DNA from: an uncultured Brachyspira sp.
Lineage (GTDB): Bacteria > Spirochaetota > Brachyspiria > Brachyspirales > Brachyspiraceae
Length of the DNA stretch: 54,911 bases
Assembly (NCBI GenBank): GCA_949287565.1
Contig: CASEHG010000316.1
Span: forward strand, 1 to 54,911
Direction of reading: 5' to 3'
Part shown: in pieces, positions 4,000 to 25,580 of the stretch
Position numbering within the stretch: position 1 is the first letter of the stretch
Layout of the letters: every line of letters starts with the position of its first letter
Made by a program: the position numbers and the translations under genes
The notes under the pieces: model-generated
The model's database searches: none
The model's input: the letters and a program-made list of their open reading frames with translations, nothing else
What the model was told of the DNA's origin: nothing

Positions 4000-4726
4000 A
4001 TGTGGTATTTAGGGAGTAAAAGTAGAATAAGCAAATATATTGTGCCAATAATACAGTCATATATCAACAAAGATACAAATGGATATTTAGAGCCATTTGT
4101 GGGGGGGGGCTAATATTATTGATAAAATACAATGCAACAATAAAATTGGATGTGACATACATAAAGAATTAATAGCTTTATTAAAACATGTACAAAATAA
4201 TATTAAAGATATACCTGATATTATAACACAAGAAACTTACAATAAAGTAAAAAATAATAAAAATCAGTATGAGGATTGGTATGTTGGATTAGTTGGATTT
4301 TGTGCTACATTTGGAGCTAAATACTTTGGAGGTTACGGCAAACATTCTAAAGATGATAATAGCGAAACTTATCCGACAGAAGCTATTAATAATTTAAAAA
4401 AACAAGCACCTAATTTAAAAGATATTAAATTTATAAATATAGATTTCAGAAATATAGATATGTCACAAATTAATAATTTTGTTATATATTGCGATATTCC
4501 ATACAGATACACAACAAAATATAAAACAAACCCATTCCCTTACGAAGAATTTTACGAATGGGCTATAAAGGCTTCATATAATAATACTGTTTTGGTCAGT
4601 GAATATTGGATGCCTGAAGGCTTCAAATGTATCTGGGAAAAAGAACAAAAAATATTATTAAACAATACTGATAACTCACGTAGTAATTTATCAAGAACAG
4701 AAAAACTGTTTATTGTAGATAAATAG
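4000..4726 (+). CDS. D12-class DNA adenine methyltransferase, frame broken at a G9 tract
   Basis: The N-terminal part, MWYLGSKSRISKYIVPIIQ then LEPFVGGG, is the AdoMet-binding motif of Dam-type methylases. The frame breaks inside the glycine motif at nine G (4101-4109); removing one G or adding two restores it. Downstream are the family's typical DWYVGLVGFCATFGAKYFGGY block, the catalytic motif as CDIPY (usually DPPY), and VSEYWMPEGFKCIWEKE. Total length is about 241 aa. It ends with TAG. The protein should methylate adenine N6, protecting phage DNA from host restriction. As sequenced it would be inactive unless slippage occurs, so it is either an assembly slip or a phase switch. Confidence 0.72.
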
Positions 4727-4792: not shown

Positions 4793-5647
4793 ATGAATTT
4801 TCACTGCAATTGTTGTGATGGTATATATAATTCTTTTGATGTACATTTTACAAGTGCTTGCGATAATAAATGTTCACATTGTATTGATAATTGTTACGAA
4901 GGTCTTAAAATTAATAAACCTAATATAGAAGCTATTATAAAAACTATTATTGACAACTCCGATGGTTTAGATGATGTTTTGTTCTTGGGTGGCGAACCAT
5001 GTCTGTATTTAGATGAATTATTAGAGTGTGTAAAAGAACTTAAGAAACAAACAACATTAAAGTTATACGTTACAACTTCTGTTCCTAAAATTTGTTATGA
5101 AAAAAGAGATAAGTTTGAAGAATTAATTGAATTATTAGATGGCATCAATCTTTCTGTTCAACATTATAAAGAAGAAATAGCAGATGATATTAGAAAAACA
5201 AAATCAACATATGATAGACAAGGTTTTTATAATTCACTTCCGCATAAAGAGAAGATAAGGATTAATTTAAATATTGTAAAACCATATTTATATCAAAAAG
5301 ATGATATAATAAATTGTTTGAAACATTATGATAAAATGGGGTTTGGTTCAATTAAACTTTCTGAAATACAGCATGGAGAAGATGTATTTGTATCTTTTGA
5401 AAAAATTTTTGATATTAAATTAAAATCTGCTTATTCTAATGGTTGTCAAACATATTTAGATATGAGTAAGATTATACCTAATTTTCAGACTCCATTACTA
5501 TTAAAAAGGTCTTGTTTTGTGTGTGAGAATACTCTAAAAGCTACATTATCAGACGGAATTAAAGTTGTAAGTAATTTTTTTAAAAAACCTCAAAACAAAT
5601 ATGCTGTTATTTATGAGGATGGGACATTATCGAGAGGGTGGATTTAA
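4793..5647 (+). CDS. Radical SAM enzyme
   Basis: A 284-aa protein with the radical SAM cluster motif C23-x3-C27-x2-C30 (SACDNKCSHC), which binds a 4Fe-4S cluster that cleaves AdoMet. LFLGGEPCLY is the glycine-rich AdoMet motif. Four further Cys near the termini (CNCC at residues 5-8, CFVC near 239) might ligate an auxiliary cluster, but no full SPASM or Twitch domain is recognisable. The spacing differs from QueE (CX14CX2C), so a 7-deazaguanine role is unlikely. A strong Shine-Dalgarno (AAAGGAGTG) precedes the ATG. The stop is separated by a single base from the start of a 29-residue peptide gene, suggesting an enzyme-substrate pair (inference). Confidence 0.85.
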   Translation: MNFHCNCCDGIYNSFDVHFTSACDNKCSHCIDNCYEGLKINKPNIEAIIKTIIDNSDGLDDVLFLGGEPCLYLDELLECVKELKKQTTLKLYVTTSVPKICYEKRDKFEELIELLDGINLSVQHYKEEIADDIRKTKSTYDRQGFYNSLPHKEKIRINLNIVKPYLYQKDDIINCLKHYDKMGFGSIKLSEIQHGEDVFVSFEKIFDIKLKSAYSNGCQTYLDMSKIIPNFQTPLLLKRSCFVCENTLKATLSDGIKVVSNFFKKPQNKYAVIYEDGTLSRGWI

Positions 5648-5648
5648 T

Positions 5649-5738
5649 ATGTATACTAAAATTTTAAGAAAAATAATAAAGATAAAAAGATGGTCATTTG
5701 GTCATTGTGATGGCAGTGGTTCTGGACATTGTACATAA
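5649..5738 (+). CDS. 29-aa GHC-containing peptide, candidate radical SAM substrate
   Basis: This tiny frame starts one base after the radical SAM stop codon, with GAGGGTGG as ribosome site. It has a basic N-terminal half, MYTKILRKIIKIKRW, and a tail SFGHCDGSGSGHCT in which GHC occurs twice around a DGSGS spacer. This leader/core split, with Cys, His and an aromatic residue in a Gly/Ser-rich core, is what RiPP precursors beside radical SAM maturases look like. No protease or exporter gene is adjacent. It might instead be a basic membrane-active or metal-binding micro-protein. Coding status is supported by position, ribosome site and composition only. Confidence 0.5.
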   Translation: MYTKILRKIIKIKRWSFGHCDGSGSGHCT

Positions 5739-5876
5739 AATTCACATTTTAATGCCAATTATGATGTGTAAAAAGTGCCGTATTTATTGAGAAAAATGAT
5801 ATATCAAAAATATTATTTTTAACAAAATATCAAATTTTATAAGAAGAATGTTTAATATTTTCAAGGAGAAAGGTTT

Positions 5877-6167
5877 ATGGAAATAATAAAAGATATAATT
5901 ATCTTAATTATGTGTCATTTAATAGGGGATTATGTTTTACAGAGTAGTTTCATAGCTGACACCAAAGGTTCTAATTGGTATCATTTATTTGTACATTCAG
6001 TACTTTATATTATTCCATTCTGTTTCTTATATGGAATAATATGGCAATCTATTGTCGTATGTGTACTTCATTTTATAATAGATGCCTTAAAGGCAAGATA
6101 TAGTAAAATTACATATCTACAAGACCAAGTAGCTCATTATATTTTAATTTTATTATATTTAATATAA
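5877..6167 (+). CDS. DUF3307-like integral membrane protein
   Basis: A 96-aa protein made of about four hydrophobic helices, with MCHLIGDYVLQSSFIADTK near the N terminus, a central VHSVLYIIPF, and LHFIIDALKARYSKI. These match the conserved signature of the DUF3307 family (HLLGDFxLQ, HxxxH and HxxIDxxK positions) found in many bacteria and phages. Location is the cytoplasmic membrane; function is unknown. AAGGAGAAAGG precedes the ATG. The 138-base stretch upstream (5739-5876) holds no convincing gene. Confidence 0.75.
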   Translation: MEIIKDIIILIMCHLIGDYVLQSSFIADTKGSNWYHLFVHSVLYIIPFCFLYGIIWQSIVVCVLHFIIDALKARYSKITYLQDQVAHYILILLYLI

Positions 6168-6185
6168 AAGAAAGAAGGTAGTAAT

Positions 6186-6758
6186 ATGTGTAATACAAGT
6201 GTAACAACGAATTGGGGAACTTACGATAACTGGCAGACTTTAAATATTAGTACTTCTACACCACAAATTGCTATTTCTGATATAGATTCTGCCACAAATA
6301 CGATAACCCTAACACCATCAAACACGTTACCGTTACCAAATGAAAAAATAAATATTAATGAATTAAATAATATATGTTCAAATATTGATTCAGTGATAAC
6401 AATTAAAGATATAAAAATTATAGTCCCAAATAAAGTTGTAGAAATAACTTATAAAGATAATACGAAAGAAAAAGTTGTTTGTGACAATGAAGATAATTTT
6501 AGCTTTGATGCCGCTATTGCTATATGTGCTTTAAAAAAGCTTATGGGTAATTCTAAGTGCAACCATTATTTAAAATCAGGTTATAAAATAATTGATGATA
6601 AAGAAAAATTATTATTAAAAGAACAAGAAGAAAAAGAGATTATAGCACGTAAAAAAGAAAAAGCTAAATTAAAGAAAGAAAAAAGAAGATTAAGAAAGAG
6701 AGAAGAACAAATAAATATTATCGCCGAAGCGATTAAACGCTCCGAATCATTAAAATAA
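6186..6758 (+). CDS. Hypothetical protein with basic coiled-coil tail
   Basis: A 190-aa protein. The N-terminal 60 residues are Thr/Ser/Asn-rich (possible beta region). The middle contains IKDIKIIVPNKVVEITYKDN, and the last 50 residues are an almost unbroken Lys/Glu/Arg helix (EKEIIARKKEKAKLKKEKRR), consistent with a coiled coil or nucleic-acid-binding tail. The start is preceded by AAGAAGG. A terminator follows at 6777. No family recognised. Confidence 0.6.
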   Translation: MCNTSVTTNWGTYDNWQTLNISTSTPQIAISDIDSATNTITLTPSNTLPLPNEKININELNNICSNIDSVITIKDIKIIVPNKVVEITYKDNTKEKVVCDNEDNFSFDAAIAICALKKLMGNSKCNHYLKSGYKIIDDKEKLLLKEQEEKEIIARKKEKAKLKKEKRRLRKREEQINIIAEAIKRSESLK

Positions 6759-9049: not shown

Positions 9050-10063
9050 TTAAACTTCTTTATTTTTAATTATTGTAATTTTCTTCTGTTCGTCATTCCA
9101 ATAAACTTCATAACCTAATGCCTCAACCCATCTTACAGGGATTAAAGCTCTTGAAGTTTCAGGGTCAATTTCAGGTGCTTGGTCAAGTACAACGGTCATA
9201 CCATTAACCTTCATTTCTCTGTCGCCTATCCACATTTCTACAACATCTTGGTCTACAGGGTCGTTCTCTAAATCAACGCCCGTATAAGCATCTACTAAAT
9301 AAGAAATCTGGAATATGTCATTTGTTTTTCTATTTAAATAATCATAGGGTATGTAAATATATCCTTTGTTTCCACAATTCTCACCCCAAGAATTTAATAA
9401 ACGAAGGAATCCTTTACATTTTGTACCATCTTCATATTTGTGTTCTAACTCATCATCATACCCTACTGCTACCATAGCGTGTCCACCAATAGATTTACCT
9501 TTTGGCATAGGACAAAATTCATCATTTAATATATCATAAAAATTTTCAAATGCTATGATACCAACAACTACAGGTTTTCCAAGACTTAAAGCATATTTTA
9601 TATCATCAACATTATTACATCTTGCATAGTTTGCTATTTTATAATGTGGAACTTTACTATCATTAGGAAGTTCATGAAACTTAAGACTTCCTACCTCGTA
9701 GTCATAAGGATAATCTATATCTTTTACTGTACCATGATTATATATTGCTTTAAATACACTTAAGATATCACTACCTTCTTGACCTTTAAATGAATCTATT
9801 TTTTTTACTTCTTTAGCTAATGCTATAGGAGACATATTCATTTTATTAGAAGTTTCCATTGTTTCCTGCATACCTTTAAAATATGCACCTGCATAAGAAT
9901 GGCAGAATCCTGTTGAGCCTTGGTCTAAAACCTTATCACAATATTTTTTTAAACTTACTTTTTTAGGTAACTCCCCATGTGCAGTAAATATTTTGCACAC
10001 TTCCCAATCTCTCGGACTTTTAGGAGATTCTTTTAAATCAAAACATCTTTTTATATCGCTCAT
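9050..10063 (-). CDS. Papain-like (C1) cysteine peptidase with stalk domain
   Basis: A 337-aa protein. The papain fold is shown by DQGSTGFCHSYA (oxyanion Gln48, nucleophile Cys54), GGHAMVAVGYDD (His195) and LLNSWGENCGNKGY (Asn224). The last 55 residues resemble the copper amine oxidase N-terminal-like stalk domain of clostridial surface proteins (ALIPVRWVEALGYEVYWND). There is no obvious signal peptide. It is the last gene of the late minus-strand unit, directly after the amidase (gap of four bases). It may therefore serve lysis by cleaving peptide cross-links, or degrade host surface proteins; both are inference. Confidence 0.85.
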   Translation of the reverse strand: MSDIKRCFDLKESPKSPRDWEVCKIFTAHGELPKKVSLKKYCDKVLDQGSTGFCHSYAGAYFKGMQETMETSNKMNMSPIALAKEVKKIDSFKGQEGSDILSVFKAIYNHGTVKDIDYPYDYEVGSLKFHELPNDSKVPHYKIANYARCNNVDDIKYALSLGKPVVVGIIAFENFYDILNDEFCPMPKGKSIGGHAMVAVGYDDELEHKYEDGTKCKGFLRLLNSWGENCGNKGYIYIPYDYLNRKTNDIFQISYLVDAYTGVDLENDPVDQDVVEMWIGDREMKVNGMTVVLDQAPEIDPETSRALIPVRWVEALGYEVYWNDEQKKITIIKNKEV

Positions 10064-17193: not shown

Positions 17194-20100
17194 TTATCTC
17201 CTATATAAGTTCTTAACCATTTGGTTAGGTAAATAATTAATAATTGCCTGTGATAATTCATCTACATTTTGAACATCATGTAATATTATATCTCCGATAC
17301 TAATTGAGGGAGCAGTTGCTTGTGTTGTAGGTGCTTGATATTTTTGTAAAATATCACTAAATGTATCTTGGAAGAAACCGTATGGATTCATTGCGACATC
17401 AATTATTCTTTTTGTTAAATCTGCTGGAACTACTCCTGTTCCTAAACCTAAATAATCTAATCTTCCCTGTGAAGTAGGTCTAATGGTTAATTCAGAGCCC
17501 TCTTCGTCAATCATAGCAAAGCCTTCTGGTGAACTCATAGTACCTTTGGCAAATCTATAAACACCGTCCCAAAGTTCATTATAAGCATCTCTAAGCTCTA
17601 TATATCTTGAACTTGTTGAGCCATATAACTTCGCCATTCTGTCAAGATAGTTTTCTATTTCAAGCTGAGCGGCTAATTGTTCCATTGAAGACATCTCATT
17701 GGGGTCTTCATTAGCATAAGGAGCACCAGCGGGGAAATCAATATTACTTCCACCAGAGCTACCTCCAGAACCTCCGCCGCTACCGCCTTCATCACCGCTA
17801 TCGCCGCCACCGCCAGAATCGCCACCATCGCCACCTGAACTGCCACCGCCAAAATCAGTATTAGAAATGATATCACCTAAGTCATCAACGCTATATGTTA
17901 AATCTTCAATACTTCCAGTGTTATTATATAACTCATCACTATTCCAATATAATTCGTCTGTATTATCGTCAAGACCATCATATACATCATAGTTTGAGTC
18001 TGTGTTATCTTCAAGTATAGAACTATTATTTTCAATACTTGAATTTAATACTTCTGTTCCCCATAAACTGTCATCAATGGAAGTTTTTACATCGTCTATT
18101 TTTTTACTCCATTTACCAGTCTGTGGGTTATATGAAGCACCTTGCGTATTTGGAGCAACTATTTGATAGATACCGTCAGTAGTAATAATTTTATCCCCAA
18201 CTGCCGCTTCTGATGGAGATGAGCCATCTGCGTTAACATACCAAGTTTTTGAACGTGAAGAAGTCGTTCCACTTGCAAACAAGTTCTTTGTCTTTTCTTC
18301 TACTTTGTCCATTTCATCTAAATATGAATCAACAAAGTCATCTAATATATCACTCATTTCTTCGAATGACATATCACCATTAAGAACCATTCTTTGCAGT
18401 TCTTCACTTAATCCATCAACTATGTCAGAAATATCAAGAGACTCTTCCCATTTTTCTTTGAGCGTTTCTAATTCGTCAATTTGTGCGTCAAAGTTCTCTT
18501 CTACAGCTTCTTTTGCTTCTTCTAAGGCTTCAATTTCATCGTTTAATTGTTCTTCTAACTGCCATTTTTCATAATCTCTTTTCGCATCATTATAATCATT
18601 CTGTGCATCTTGTATCGCTGTAGGGTCAGCTTCCCAAACGAAACCTATACCTTCTCTATAAATTTGTATATTTTTTTGTTTTTTAGCTTCGTCAAGGGCA
18701 AGTTGCTTTTCTTCTAAATCAAGGATTTTATCTCTTTTTTTTTCTTCTTCGTCTAAAAGGTCTAATTGTTCCTTAATTCTTTCTATTTTTTCATCATAAT
18801 ATGCAGTTTCTTCGTCTTTCTGCTGTTCTAAAGCGTCAATTTGGTCTTCAATTATCTTTACATTATAGTCTCTTAAAGCTTCGTATTGAGATTGAATATC
18901 ATCTTTAAGTTTTTCTGCCGCATCTATCCAACGCTCTAAATATTCTTCTTCTGTAAGATATCCTTTACGAGCATATTCTTCAATAATGTCAAGCTTTGAT
19001 TTACTTAAATTAATTTGTGTCTGTAAATCAAGTTCACCAATTGCTTCAAGATATTCAGCATATCTATCAAGTTCATCAATACCATTATCAACTATATCAG
19101 TTTGAAGCTGTTTAACTTCACGAGCATACTCTCTATATTTAGACTGTAAGTCCTTAATTAGGTCAGAATCTTCAGAAACACCTGCGGCTCTATATGCATC
19201 AGCCATTTGATGAGTAAATTCCATTTGTTGTCTACGTAATGCTAATATTTCTTCTTCTCTATTACCTTGGTCTTCAAGAATTTCAATTTCAGCGTCAATA
19301 TTAGACATTTCTTCATCATAGATTTCACCTTGTAACTGTCTCATTTCTTCTAAATTTTTTCTATGCTCACTTAAATATTTTTCATTACCAGCATAGTATT
19401 TAGTATCAAGAGCTTTTAATCCATCATAATATTCTCTCCTTGAAATCTTACCCATTGCGTATAAATGTTGGAGTTCTTCTAATTCTGCTTCAAAGGCTTT
19501 AATTATAAGGTCTTCTCCACTATCACTACTACTACCACCACTACCACCAGAAGAAGGAGGGGTATATTGAACGTCTGTATCAAATTTATCATACATTTCA
19601 TCAAGAGCATTTTCAGTCAACATATCAATATAATTTTCACTATAAGTTGTTTTAAGTTTCATTCCATTAACAGTAGTATATTGAACTAATTGACCATTTT
19701 CTAAAAATCCACCATTCGCCATTATAGAATTTAAAACTTTTAAAGAGGCTATTGGTTGACTAATGCTTTTGTTTAATTCTTGTAATGCCTTTATTTTATC
19801 AGATACAGACAAATTAGTTTTATTAAAGTTTATTTGCTCTAAAACTAATAGAGCCATCTGATTAGTGGTTATACCAGCTTGCGTTGCTTCTAAATCAAGA
19901 TTTCCAATAAATGTCATTAATGTTCCATTAGTAATTTGTGTTTGTATTTCTAAAGAAGCTTTTTGTTTTGTAAGTGCTTCCTCAGCGATTACTTCGGCAT
20001 TGGTAATACCCATACCCTCTAGTCTGGTTACAATACTATCCTTATTAGCCTCTGTTAATTCACCCAAAACTACTTTTTCGTTAATATAATCAGTTATTAA

Positions 20101-23100
20101 ATTATTTATTGTATCTTGAAATTTTTCACTGGTTATATTCGCATCAGAAAGAGTATCAATATACTTATCAATACCTTGAACTTCCGCAAAAGATTGTTTA
20201 ATTTTATCTAAAACATCTAAAGAAACATATCCGTTATCTTTAAAATCATCAAAAGCAGACGATATACTTTCTAAAGAAGTCTCAAATGTTCCAAGAGAAC
20301 TTAAAATATTACTATTGTCCGAATTAGTAACATTAATTTTTGTATTAAGTTCATATGTTTCATTTTCTATAGCTTGTTTTAATTTATCAGTAAGGTTATT
20401 AAAATCTTTACCTTTAACTTCTTTGCCTGATAAATAATCTGACCACTCTTGACCATGGTCTTTCATAAAATTGTTAATTTCATCTTCGTCAAATCCAAGC
20501 GATATTAAAAACTCTCTACCTTCGGTAGTTGTTAATAAGTCGTTCATAATATCATTAAGTTCTTTTTGATATTCTTCTGTATTAACATCTATATTTGATA
20601 AATTTAGCAATCTTTGATTATAATAATCTACAGCGTTACTTGCTCGCATCCAAGAGTTAACTGCGTTTTGCATTGATTCAGCTAAATCTTTATCAAATTG
20701 ATTATTTGATTGTGATAATGCTTCTATTGACTGACTGAAACTACTATATAAATTTAATCCTTCGGATTGCAAATCTGCATAATTACCCTGTAGATATATT
20801 AATTGTTCGTTAAGTTTTTGTTCCTTCTCAGATAATTTTTCTAATTGTGATATCTTATCCTCATTTGATAAAGTATCATCCGCTTCTATTTTATTTCTTT
20901 GTGCTATAATTTCGTTAATTTCTTTTTCTTTATTTTCTACAGCAGTTAATGCTTCTTCTTGCAATTCCGCATTTTCTAATAAATAATCTGTCGCACTAAT
21001 ATCTTCTCTTTGTCCAAAAATATCAACTTGTTTTTTACTTATAAATGTAGAATCATAAAATTCACGAGCATCCTGTTGTGCTTGAAGTTGTGCAATTTTA
21101 TTTCTAGTTTCTAATAGTTGAATTTGTCTTTCAAGTTCTTCACTTTGAGCCTTCAAATTTGATAATTCTTGAGCATCAGTAATAGAAAGTTCACCCTTTG
21201 ATTTTATCTCTGCTATTTGATTATTAATATCAGAAAGTTCGTTTTTGGCATTTTCTAAATCGGCAGAACTATCACTAAGCTCATTTATTGACTCTGTTAA
21301 ATCTGACATTGCTCTTTGTCCACTAGTTCTTATGTATTGTTGCACTGCCGCTAAAGCCGCAAATGCTCCAACTAACGCCATGATTCCACCAGTCGAGCCT
21401 ATTAATTTTGATAAAACTTCAACACTACCCTTGTTTTTAAATAACTTCATTAAATCAACAAAGGAATCTTTTAAATATAAAACTTGTAAATATAAAGTTT
21501 CTGCTGAGTCTTTAATTTTTAATAATTGCTGTTGAAGACCAGAACCACCCTTTAATTGACCAGAGGTAATTAAGTTCAATATTGTACTAAGATCTGCTAT
21601 TAAATTACTCGTTCCTTTTAATACTGCTGGTGCACCAAATAATGCAAAACCAGCTATTGCACCACCAACGGCAATTTCAACTAAATGTAACTTATCAACT
21701 AATTCTAAAAGGTGTGTACCTAATTCAACAATTCCTGCAAAAGTATCACTCTGATTTAAATTATTTACAAGCTGTTCCCATGTAGCTATAAATTCGTTTA
21801 TCTTGGCATCTATACTTTCAAGATATATTGAATACTTTTGTTCAGCAGTACCAGCTGCATTTGTAGCTTTATTTGTAGCTTCTGTAACTTTTTCCCAATT
21901 ATTAAATAATACAATTAAGTTTTCTCTTTGTCTCGTACCACCAAGAGCAGTTGTAATTTGTGACCTTTGAGTATCTGTAAATTCACTCCATCTATTACCT
22001 ACTTCTTCGAAAATTTCAGAAGCATCTCGCCATTCATTTAAGCTATTCCTTGTAGCAATACCAACTCTATTTAAAGATTTCTCAACATCATTTAATTTTT
22101 CTCCTTCTTCATCAAGTTCTTTACCTGCCGCAACATTCTGTAATCTTGAGAAAATTGTTTTAAATGATTGTCCAATAGATTCGGCAGAACGTCTTGTTGT
22201 CGAAGAAACAATAGTAATCATACCAATCATTTCATCAAGTGAAACTCCAGCCATACCCGCAGAAGCCGCTGTATATCTTAAAGCTGTAGCGATTTCTCCA
22301 GCACTGGTAGCATAATCCAACTTTTATGTTATAATTCAAATGGCAAATTTGAATTTATGTTATTTGTATATTTTTATCTAAATCGTAACGAAATATAAAA
22401 TTATCTTTTAATATTATATCCTGTAATTTTTATATCAATAAATTTTGAAATTAAACTCATTCTGTCACCATTAATTATATACAAATAACAATTTCTTATA
22501 CTTTCCTATAAGAACAGACTACATCTTCATATTATTACTACATGAATAATAATATACCCTCCATTTCGATACATCATAAGCCATTTATGTATCTACTCTA
22601 CTAACTATTATGTAACGTCTTTCTCGTTATCAATAGATTTCGATAGTCGTTGAGCCTTTGTCTAATAAATAGACACTTGGTTGCTGATTGTCCAATCTTA
22701 ATTCTTTTTACTATCTCAAACACATTACTGTTTGCCCTTATATATGTCACCATTATAAGTTAGTAAACTAAGCTCTAAGGAGTTTCCAGCAATTAAAAGG
22801 GTTTATAGTGAACTAAAATTAATCCACTTTAACAAGCTTATCTACTACGCTCTCAGACTCTTTAGCTGTTAAATTGAAACCGTTTAAACTTGATGTCATT
22901 AATTCTGTTGCTTCTGCCGAATCAAGCATGCCTAATGTTGACAACTTTGTTGAAGATTCAAGCATCTCTGCTGATTCTTCGATAGAATATCCCTGTCTTC
23001 TGTTATATTACTTTTGAAAACAATTACCTTTCAAAAGATTCTATTAAAAATAGAATTTTCTTACAGTTTCCTATAAGCATAGACTATATCTTTATATTAT

Positions 23101-25562
23101 TACCCTATAAGGATAATAATATACCCTCCGTTTCAATACATTGTTAATTCTGTATTTACTCTACTACCTACTATGTAACGTCTTTCTCGTTATCAGCAGG
23201 ATTTGATAGTCGTTGAACCTTTCTCTATTCGAGACTTGGCTGCTGATTACCCAATATTTATAATTTTTAACCGTCACACCTAATCCTATTTCATATTTAT
23301 GTTGTGGTTTATAAATCTCTAAGGGATTTCCAGCAATTAAAAGGGTTTATAGTGACCTATTTTTTATTTAAGCCACTCTATACTACCTTCAGCAACGCTT
23401 CGAGTAGTAACACCTAACTGTCTTGCCAAATCGGCATAAGTATTAATAGCTTCGTGAGCTTCTTCTGCCGTTTGTCCTGTTACCATTCTCATATTAGTCA
23501 TTGCGGTGTCAAGTTCATGAACTAAAGAAATTGATTCACTTATACCACGACCAACTAAGTTTAAGGCTTCCCAAGCTAATTGATATTGTACTACATTTTT
23601 TGCAACTTCTGTTATTTTACTACCTAAAGAACCAAATAAAGATTGACTTTCTTTAGTTTTAGAGTTTACTTTAGCCATCGAATCTTCTAACTTATTATTC
23701 GAATCTGTTATTGCATCAGTATATTTTTTTCTTTTAAGCAATTCAGGGTTAGTCTGTTTCAACTCATTATTATAAGCCTCTTCTGCCTTTCTAACTTTCT
23801 CTGTAGCGTAAGCTTTTTCTTCTGTTGTTGATTTTACATTTTTGTCAACCGCATAAGCATTTAATTTTGCCTGATTTAATTCTTGGTATAATTGTATTAA
23901 TTTATTAATTTGAGCTGTATCAGCCTTATTTTGCTGTGTTAGATTAAATTCTAATTCTTGTTGTGCAAAATCATTATCAATTTCATTTAAACGAGTATTA
24001 ATTCTATTTCTAAATTGTTCGAGGTCTGCTTCGGCTTCAGTTAATTGTTTAGTAGCATTAATTTCCTCTTTAATATCATTAATTCTCTGATTATTAGCAT
24101 CTATTTTATTTTGATAAAATCTCTGTAATGCAGTATCTTCATCTTGTTCAGCTTTTTGAATTTCTTTTGTTAATTGAAGATTGTCCTTTTTTAAACTAAT
24201 ATATTCACGATAGATTTGTTCATCTTTTGCAACAGTAGTGCTACTTGCTACTGTAATTCCTTTAATTCCAGTAGCCTCATCTGTATATGATTTTAAAGAG
24301 CCTAATGCCTTAATGTCACCCATCATTAATTCAAAGGCTTGGTGAAATTCTCCTGCTTCGTCAGTCATAACATCTCCAAGATTTAATTTCATTCCTAAGC
24401 CTTTTGCGATATCTTGTGCTTCATCTAAAGTAACTGATTTAAAATCTTTTAATCTATCTTCAAATATCTTTAATATATTATTACCTTCATCAATCTGTTC
24501 TCTAACACCATCAAAAAGATTTAATTTTAAAGTTTCTCTGCCTAAATCATCATCATAAGCAGTAATTCTGGCCGAAGCTACCATGTCTGAAAATCCTTTT
24601 AAGACACCAGCTTCATCAGAAATATCCAATCCTTTAAAATATTGTGCGAACCAAGATTCAGGATTAGTCTTACTTAAATTAATATATGTTTGAGCGAGTT
24701 CCCTTCCAGCCGCAGATAATTTTTGTACCTTGGATACTCCACCCTCAATACTATTATTAAAAGTGCTTATTTCTTGACCTAATCCTGTTAAAGCTCTAGT
24801 AACTTCAACCTCATAGACTTTCCATCCATCTGACTTTATATTAACATTAGATAAATCTGAGATTTCAGATTTCCACTGAGCTATTTGCTGAGTAATTTTA
24901 TCAAAACTTGCGTCAGGCATAGAAATTTGTACACTATCACCTATTGCTCTTTGTAATAATTCATAACTTTCACGAAACCTTTGCAGTTTTCTTAAATTAC
25001 TTTCCCATTGTTGCTCATTTTGTTTTAGTGTTTTAGATTGGTCGTAATTAGGCATTACAGCATTATACTCTTTAAATCTTTCAGTATAATCCATAATACT
25101 AGAGTTAATTTTTTCTTGCAACTGAACGCTTTGTTGTAAATTTTTAATCTGTTTATTTAAGCTTTCATCGTCATTAAATGAAGGTGTTACCATATCTAAT
25201 TCTTTCGACTTTTGAACAAGTTCTTCTATTGTAGATATAGCTTTTTCAGAATTTGATATAAATTTTTCAAATCCCATATTTTTAGAAAAATTTGGCATTG
25301 AAGCTCCAACTGCATCAAATCTTTTTTTTAATTCATTTAATCTATTTGAAGAGTCACCAATAACAGACATTAAGGTATTCCATTGATTTGTATATTTTCT
25401 TAAATCACTTAATGCATCTTCATCTGTGACATTAATCTTTAATTTTTTTTGTGCTTTTTCGATTTTCTTTGCGATATTTGTAATTTGATTTGTCAAATTT
25501 TCATCCTGCATATTTGCCGCAAAGTTTATAGCTATATCAAATTGTTTCTTATTATAGGCCAA
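17194..25562 (-). CDS. Tape measure protein, three exons with two group I introns
   Basis: The phage tape measure (tail length) protein. Exon 1 is 25562-23371, exon 2 is 22999-22822, exon 3 is 22320-17194, giving about 2,498 aa. The splice junctions restore the family motif: exon 1 ends EGSIEWL, exon 2 reads RQGYSIEESAEMLESSTKLS to DKLVKVD, exon 3 begins LDYATSAGEIATALR. Start TTG 25562 lies eight bases after AAAGGAGG. Most of the chain is coiled coil, with a hydrophobic pair near residues 990-1120 and Gly/Ser-rich spacers. It would wind inside the tail tube and be ejected first. At the usual 0.15 nm per residue the tail would be roughly 375 nm long (inference). Exon 2 ends with an IGS-compatible AGTGGAT. 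Confidence 0.9.
22321..22821 (-). ncRNA. Group I intron B in the tape measure gene
   Basis: A 501-nt self-splicing-type intron. On the minus strand, conserved core elements appear in order: P-element AATTGCTGGAAACTCC, Q-element AATCAGCAACC, R-element GCTCAACGACTATCG (22642-22656) and S-element AAGATGTAGTCT (22516-22527). R and S contain the complementary P7 strands GACTA/TAGTC. The 5' site follows exon AGTGGAT, which pairs with intron AGTTCACT, ending in the required U.G pair. The last intron base is G (22321) if exon 3 starts at TTG; ending one codon later is also possible. No homing endonuclease frame lies inside. A subgroup IA type is suggested by the short P7.1/P3 layout, but the fold was not computed. 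Confidence 0.9.
23000..23370 (-). ncRNA. Group I intron A in the tape measure gene
   Basis: A 371-nt intron with the same core as intron B: P-element AATTGCTGGAAATCCC, Q-element AATCAGCAGCCAAG, R-element GTTCAACGACTATC (23205-23218), S-element AAGATATAGTCT (23082-23093), with complementary GACTA/TAGTC. The 5' site follows exon AGTGGCT, which pairs with intron AGGTCACT and ends in U.G. The final base is G (23000), and exon 2 starts AAGACAGGG. It is clearly paralogous to intron B, much of the core being identical, and it likewise lacks an endonuclease gene. Confidence 0.9.
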
Positions 25563-25580
25563 TAATAACACCTCCTTTAA

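Follow-up and report, generated by a model that had tools for sequence, protein, structure and literature searches.

The analysed DNA (the window, the whole stretch of 54,911 nucleotides) carries two adjoining genes, one for a radical SAM enzyme and one for a peptide of 29 residues, which we explain overall as a maturase and its precursor, RiPP-like in kind and carried by a phage, a reading to which we assign a probability of roughly 0.7. Sequence comparisons suggest that the enzyme probably modifies the adjacent small protein, and the pair appears to represent a family of modified peptides, borne by phages, that had not been described before. An earlier note on this DNA had proposed a radical-SAM-modified peptide carried by a phage; judged from sequence, this proposal is well supported and reaches far beyond the window.

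The enzyme-peptide gene pair and its phage setting

The gene of the radical SAM enzyme, the proposed maturase, spans 4793..5647 on the forward strand and encodes 284 residues. Its assignment to the radical SAM proteins in the earlier note is confirmed by a PF04055 match above the gathering score (45.4 bits against a cut-off of 29.5, E 1.3e-11; Pfam), a CxxxCxxC motif formed by C23, C27, and C30, and a GGEP motif at residues 66-69. The three cluster cysteines are invariant in the enzyme alignment, as are three further cysteines (C8, C218, and C241), and C101 is kept in most sequences. No named family was found for the enzyme above PF04055, and no NCBIfam model reaches its cut-off. An RRE (PqqD-like) domain has no Pfam match, and only 22 residues lie ahead of the first cluster cysteine, which leaves no room for an N-terminal RRE. 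The Pfam models revealed no SPASM domain either; a reduced twitch-like site is possible, because C218 and C241 are invariant and the residues up to 284 align with SuiB and CteB. The nearest solved folds to the AlphaFold model of the enzyme (mean pLDDT 87) have close scores: SuiB (Z 17.6), MoaA (17.2), GDGT-MAS (16.9), and viperin (16.8), followed by PFL-AE (16.6), CteB (16.0), ChlB (15.1), and SkfB (15.0). The peptide maturases SuiB, CteB, ChlB, and SkfB are thus among the closest folds, tied with others.

The peptide gene (MYTKILRKIIKIKRWSFGHCDGSGSGHCT, 29 aa; 5649..5738, forward strand) begins one base after the enzyme gene, just as had been described: the enzyme stop codon TAA at 5645-5647 is followed by the single T5648 and the peptide ATG at 5649-5651. 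Its assignment as a precursor gene draws on its retention behind homologous enzymes, a reverse search, and pN/pS. An alignment of 23 peptides defines a conserved leader box, M[YFW]TK.LRK., at residues 1-9 (5649..5675, forward strand). In the same alignment H19 and C20 of the first GHC unit (residues 18-20; 5700..5708, forward strand) and H27 and C28 of the second (residues 26-28; 5724..5732, forward strand) are invariant. The claim that the peptide gene has its own ribosome site stands only in part. A possible site, GAGAGGG (5632..5638, forward strand), is located about 10 nt upstream of the ATG, but it lies in the last codons of the enzyme gene and may be coincidental, because relatives read AAAGGATGG at this spot and the same letters encode the conserved KGW end of the enzyme.

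A chance ORF was rejected for the peptide on three counts. The window contains M[Y/F/W]T...GHC...GHC a single time, and none of 100 shuffled sequences contains it; GHC..GHC-x-stop occurs once in the whole 2.93 Mb assembly. Furthermore, the window and related loci together have 1,984 distinct ORFs between 20 and 80 aa long; of the 25 that contain at least two HC pairs, 23 follow the radical SAM gene and the other two are unrelated. Look-ups of the peptide family in Pfam, PHROGs, NCBIfam, and PADLOC gave no match. The N-terminal part of the peptides has a net charge of +2 to +6, and the hydrophobic moment reaches p < 0.05 in 9 of 16 peptides (0.09 for the window's own peptide). This helical moment is only moderate, and the claim of a strongly amphipathic leader helix was rejected.

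The portal, terminase, tape measure, and tail fibre genes identify the window as a tailed phage, which bears out the phage origin proposed for the pair. The contig was binned with a 2.93-Mb draft genome; the host given by this binning is uncertain, since the terminase resembles those of SPbeta-group phages (35%). Three other features of the window were recorded. A DNA adenine methylase-like gene just upstream of the pair (4000-4726, forward strand) is broken at nine consecutive G (4101-4109) and continues in a second frame, through phase variation or an assembly error. A papain-like peptidase (9050-10063, reverse strand; phrog_16701, E 5e-21) lies near the tail and lysis genes and would be a candidate leader protease only if it is present in other carriers too. 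A Group I intron (23060-23411, reverse strand; RF00028, E 5e-17) is flanked by ORFs at 17194-22320 and 23364-25571 that both match tape-measure families, so the intron apparently interrupts the tape-measure gene.

Linkage of enzyme and peptide across phages

With the enzyme as query, IMG/VR and bacterial assemblies yielded the homologous loci L008-L045, and clade-specific searches added further ones. A Cys-rich small ORF stands behind the enzyme at all 49 IMG/VR and assembly loci (near-copies included; the clearly distinct enzyme sequences number about 35) and in four Lak megaphages, so the search for the peptide beside homologous radical SAM genes, put forward in the earlier note as a check, came out in its favor. 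The partnership is also visible where the locus has been disturbed. At L061 an unrelated gene is inserted between the two and the precursor is retained one gene further on; at L031 the enzyme is frameshifted and the peptide retained; in Lak-A2 (L004) the precursor reading frame is shifted; and at L054 (4001-4456) a deletion fuses the beginning of the enzyme gene to the peptide, whose GHC end is preserved. In the reverse direction, a pattern built from the peptide alone was run over IMG/VR and yielded 26 stretches, 18 of which carry 19 in-frame peptides, and the enzyme lies directly ahead of every one of these 19. Three of the stretches are on new contigs, with enzymes about 50-55% identical to the nearest known relative. 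The linkage is exclusive in both directions and spans very different phages.

The carrier phages come from the gut, the rumen, and sediments, and the giant Lak phages are among them. Plasmid records contain no homologue. Of 391 genomes from the class to which G062 (an assembly titled as Clostridium) belongs, G062 alone has the family, which argues against a common chromosomal system, and 60 relatives of the window's own genome gave weak generic radical SAM matches only. Two further arrangements were observed. A family pair at L075 (4334-6404), on the same contig as L045, shares this contig with aldehyde and iron-alcohol dehydrogenase genes and adjoins a second radical-SAM-like frame (5538-6404, reverse strand), whose ORF does not contain the cluster motif; the pair is possibly a chromosomal or decayed-prophage copy. 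L074 (2810-4547, reverse strand) is a chromosomal tandem pair of small radical SAM genes that are distantly related; a short ORF with LYCC at its end comes next, and the arrangement is perhaps a bacterial cousin of the phage system.

Within about 4 kb on either side of the pair, no other gene is common to the whole set of loci, so the pair behaves as a self-contained two-gene cargo. No exporter, peptidase or protease, or immunity-like gene recurs in these flanks, and the pair has no constant place among the phage modules across carriers. Neighbors identified by eye at single loci include terminase-, helicase-, polymerase-, methyltransferase-, and baseplate-like genes. In the rumen phages with long precursors (L028-L036) the pair occupies one fixed site, after NMN-adenylyltransferase-like and PnuC-like genes and before baseplate genes (named by eye).

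Precursor types and their variation

Four types of precursor were distinguished. The two-unit type, found in the window and most other loci, has 27-38 aa and consists of the M[YFW]TK.LRK leader, HC-x(2-13)-GHC, and 1-3 final residues. The four-unit type (L022-L027, L040) has 58-62 aa and four HC units. The long type (L028-L036, L058-L068; 92-111 aa) starts with an N-terminal segment of about 45 residues, followed by GGCG/SCG repeats and a G-x-Cys at the extreme C-terminus, and the Lak type (153-166 aa) ends in ...SGGCGNTYGSPYHHWSGGC. Both the long and the Lak precursors lack the short cationic leader and retain Cys-rich ends. By eye, we suspect that the leader of short and long precursors is perhaps shared.

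Within the two-unit type, mean pairwise identity is 55% in the leader (residues 2-9), 98% in the HC motifs, and 16% in the spacer, in agreement with the earlier expectation of a conserved leader beside a varying core. The residue before HC varies in the 23-peptide alignment (SHC, AHC, CHC, and THC besides GHC). The peptide is under protein-level selection, with a pN/pS of 0.21 for leader and motifs and 0.01 for the motifs alone, values that are rough because synonymous sites are near saturation. Two two-unit precursor genes stand in tandem at L020, and the near-identical enzymes of L032 and L034 are paired with precursors of five versus seven cysteines. Collectively, a steady leader, an invariant reactive residue, a hypervariable spacer, a shifting unit number, and gene duplication are hallmarks of modified-peptide precursors.

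The enzyme tree sorts by precursor type without exception, requiring 4 changes, which is the minimum (shuffled mean 17.2), and the core unit follows the enzyme clades, with HC in one half of the family and GGC(G) in the other. Such sorting would be expected of enzyme clades that each act on their own kind of core, and it supports specificity, but it falls short of proof, because clade depth or shared descent alone would also cluster the labels.

Possible chemistry, alternative readings, and known systems

On the maturase-precursor reading, we propose that the enzyme, having no RRE domain, would itself bind the conserved basic segment at the N-terminus of the peptide. By analogy with the superfamily, SAM would be reductively cleaved at the CxxxCxxC cluster and a hydrogen atom abstracted in the Gly/Ser/Cys-rich C-terminal core. 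Cysteine would be the reacting residue, since, glycine aside, no other residue is shared by the cores of the four types of precursor. The invariant enzyme cysteines suggest an auxiliary cluster on C8/C218/C241, which perhaps holds the thiol of the peptide cysteine. The thiol would then be joined to carbon, most likely as a thioether, so that each Cys unit would form a small ring or loop, and the enzyme clade would determine the unit type (HC or GGC(G)). Thioether links at cysteine are the probable products. The His-Cys links envisaged earlier have no advantage over other Cys links, as in sister clades the cysteine is kept without the histidine. As no protease or exporter is shared, the product would most likely act inside the infected cell, possibly uncleaved with the leader attached. 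Its likeliest role, as an accessory (moron) product directed against host functions or rival phages, is a guess, which we hold as tentative.

The enzyme could instead act on a small molecule such as a nucleotide, in the manner of viperin or MoaA, with the Cys/His peptide as a metal- or cluster-binding helper or an electron-transfer piece. Viperins (pVip) are of similar size and rank first in a profile search of solved structures with the enzyme (E about 1e-11), the pVip models of PADLOC match weakly, the HC pairs are possible metal ligands, and the partner is strictly linked. The profile match, however, is confined to the common core (residues 10-197), and viperin proper was rejected at 35.5 bits against 180 for NF038283 and 21.4 against 450 for TIGR04278; the enzyme also differs from viperin in its extra invariant cysteines and its obligate Cys-rich peptide partner. 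A helper would not be expected to vary so much in spacer, unit number, and length, nor to be duplicated, and we regard this explanation as improbable. Still less probable is that the peptide is left unmodified and is only a companion of the enzyme, serving the phage as a short cationic peptide with a membrane-active or regulatory function. The N-terminal charge and the moderate helical moment noted above agree with such a peptide, and unrelated small genes are common in phage operons. Against it stand the two-way exclusive linkage across very different phages that have no other gene in common, and the long and Lak precursors, which do without the short cationic leader yet keep their Cys-rich ends.

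Weak similarity to the PFL, YjjW, and NrdG activases and the Gly-rich cores could point to an enzyme like the glycyl-radical activases, which would place a radical on a peptide glycine (GHC/GGCG), so that the peptide would serve as a small radical cofactor or a spare part. However, the residue ahead of HC is not always glycine, an RVxGY-like motif is absent, and no glycyl-radical enzyme recurs near the loci; a glycyl-radical activase was rejected for want of an invariant glycine and of a partner enzyme nearby, and we give this reading hardly any weight. The maturase-precursor reading in turn has points counting against it: most studied radical SAM RiPP clusters have the RRE, SPASM, protease, and exporter that are missing here, the folds of MoaA, viperin, and PFL-activase score as high as those of the peptide maturases, and viperins come first by profile.

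Radical SAM enzymes with precursor peptides are as a kind already known in bacteria. The sactipeptide and ranthipeptide systems (CteB/SCIFF, SkfB, PapB; PMC8326336) likewise place a radical SAM gene beside that of a small precursor whose leader is conserved and whose core bears Cys, and CteB and SkfB are related in fold to the window enzyme. Their maturases begin with an RRE and end in a SPASM or twitch domain, whereas the window enzyme has neither by sequence, although the RRE is not needed by every member of the class; the phage pair further differs in that no protease or exporter recurs nearby. In known systems a thioether is a common outcome for Cys-bearing cores, and the auxiliary cluster of CteB is proposed to hold the peptide cysteine (PMC8326336). 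The bacterial streptide maturase SuiB, which shares the top fold score with others, has its leader helix in the active site and not in the RRE (PMC8326336), an arrangement that would suit an RRE-less enzyme. SuiB, however, makes a Lys-Trp C-C link and has both RRE and SPASM, and the phage cores lack KxxxW. Radical SAM proteins of TIGR04038 and TIGR04100 are of similarly small size and among the best NCBIfam profile matches, but the scores of the window enzyme (43 and 38) fall short of their cut-offs (130 and 262), and only the core is covered. Sublancin of prophage SPbeta, to whose group the window terminase is related, also represents a phage carrying a modified-peptide gene; this secreted glycocin is S-glycosylated, comes with an exporter and immunity, and has no radical SAM enzyme.

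Pfam, NCBIfam, PHROGs, and PADLOC contain nothing named for the family or its HC/GGC cores beyond the generic radical SAM core. No report of the pair was found in the openly accessible literature; the Lak-phage literature examined contains neither 'radical' nor 'RiPP', and the radical SAM RiPP review (PMC8326336) does not mention phages. We see an even chance that the pair represents a phage-specific radical-SAM peptide family, spread over unrelated phages from about 55 kb to the 540-kb Lak phages, acting intracellularly without leader removal or export and forming a new class of effector chemistry. If true, an independent family with its own enzyme and core logic and no export genes would bring radical peptide chemistry into infection by diverse phages. 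The finding also provides a testable interpretation of a gene pair in the Lak megaphages, whose records were deposited without annotation. Finally, a compact single enzyme without RRE or SPASM, together with dozens of natural core variants, may provide material on how Cys links form.
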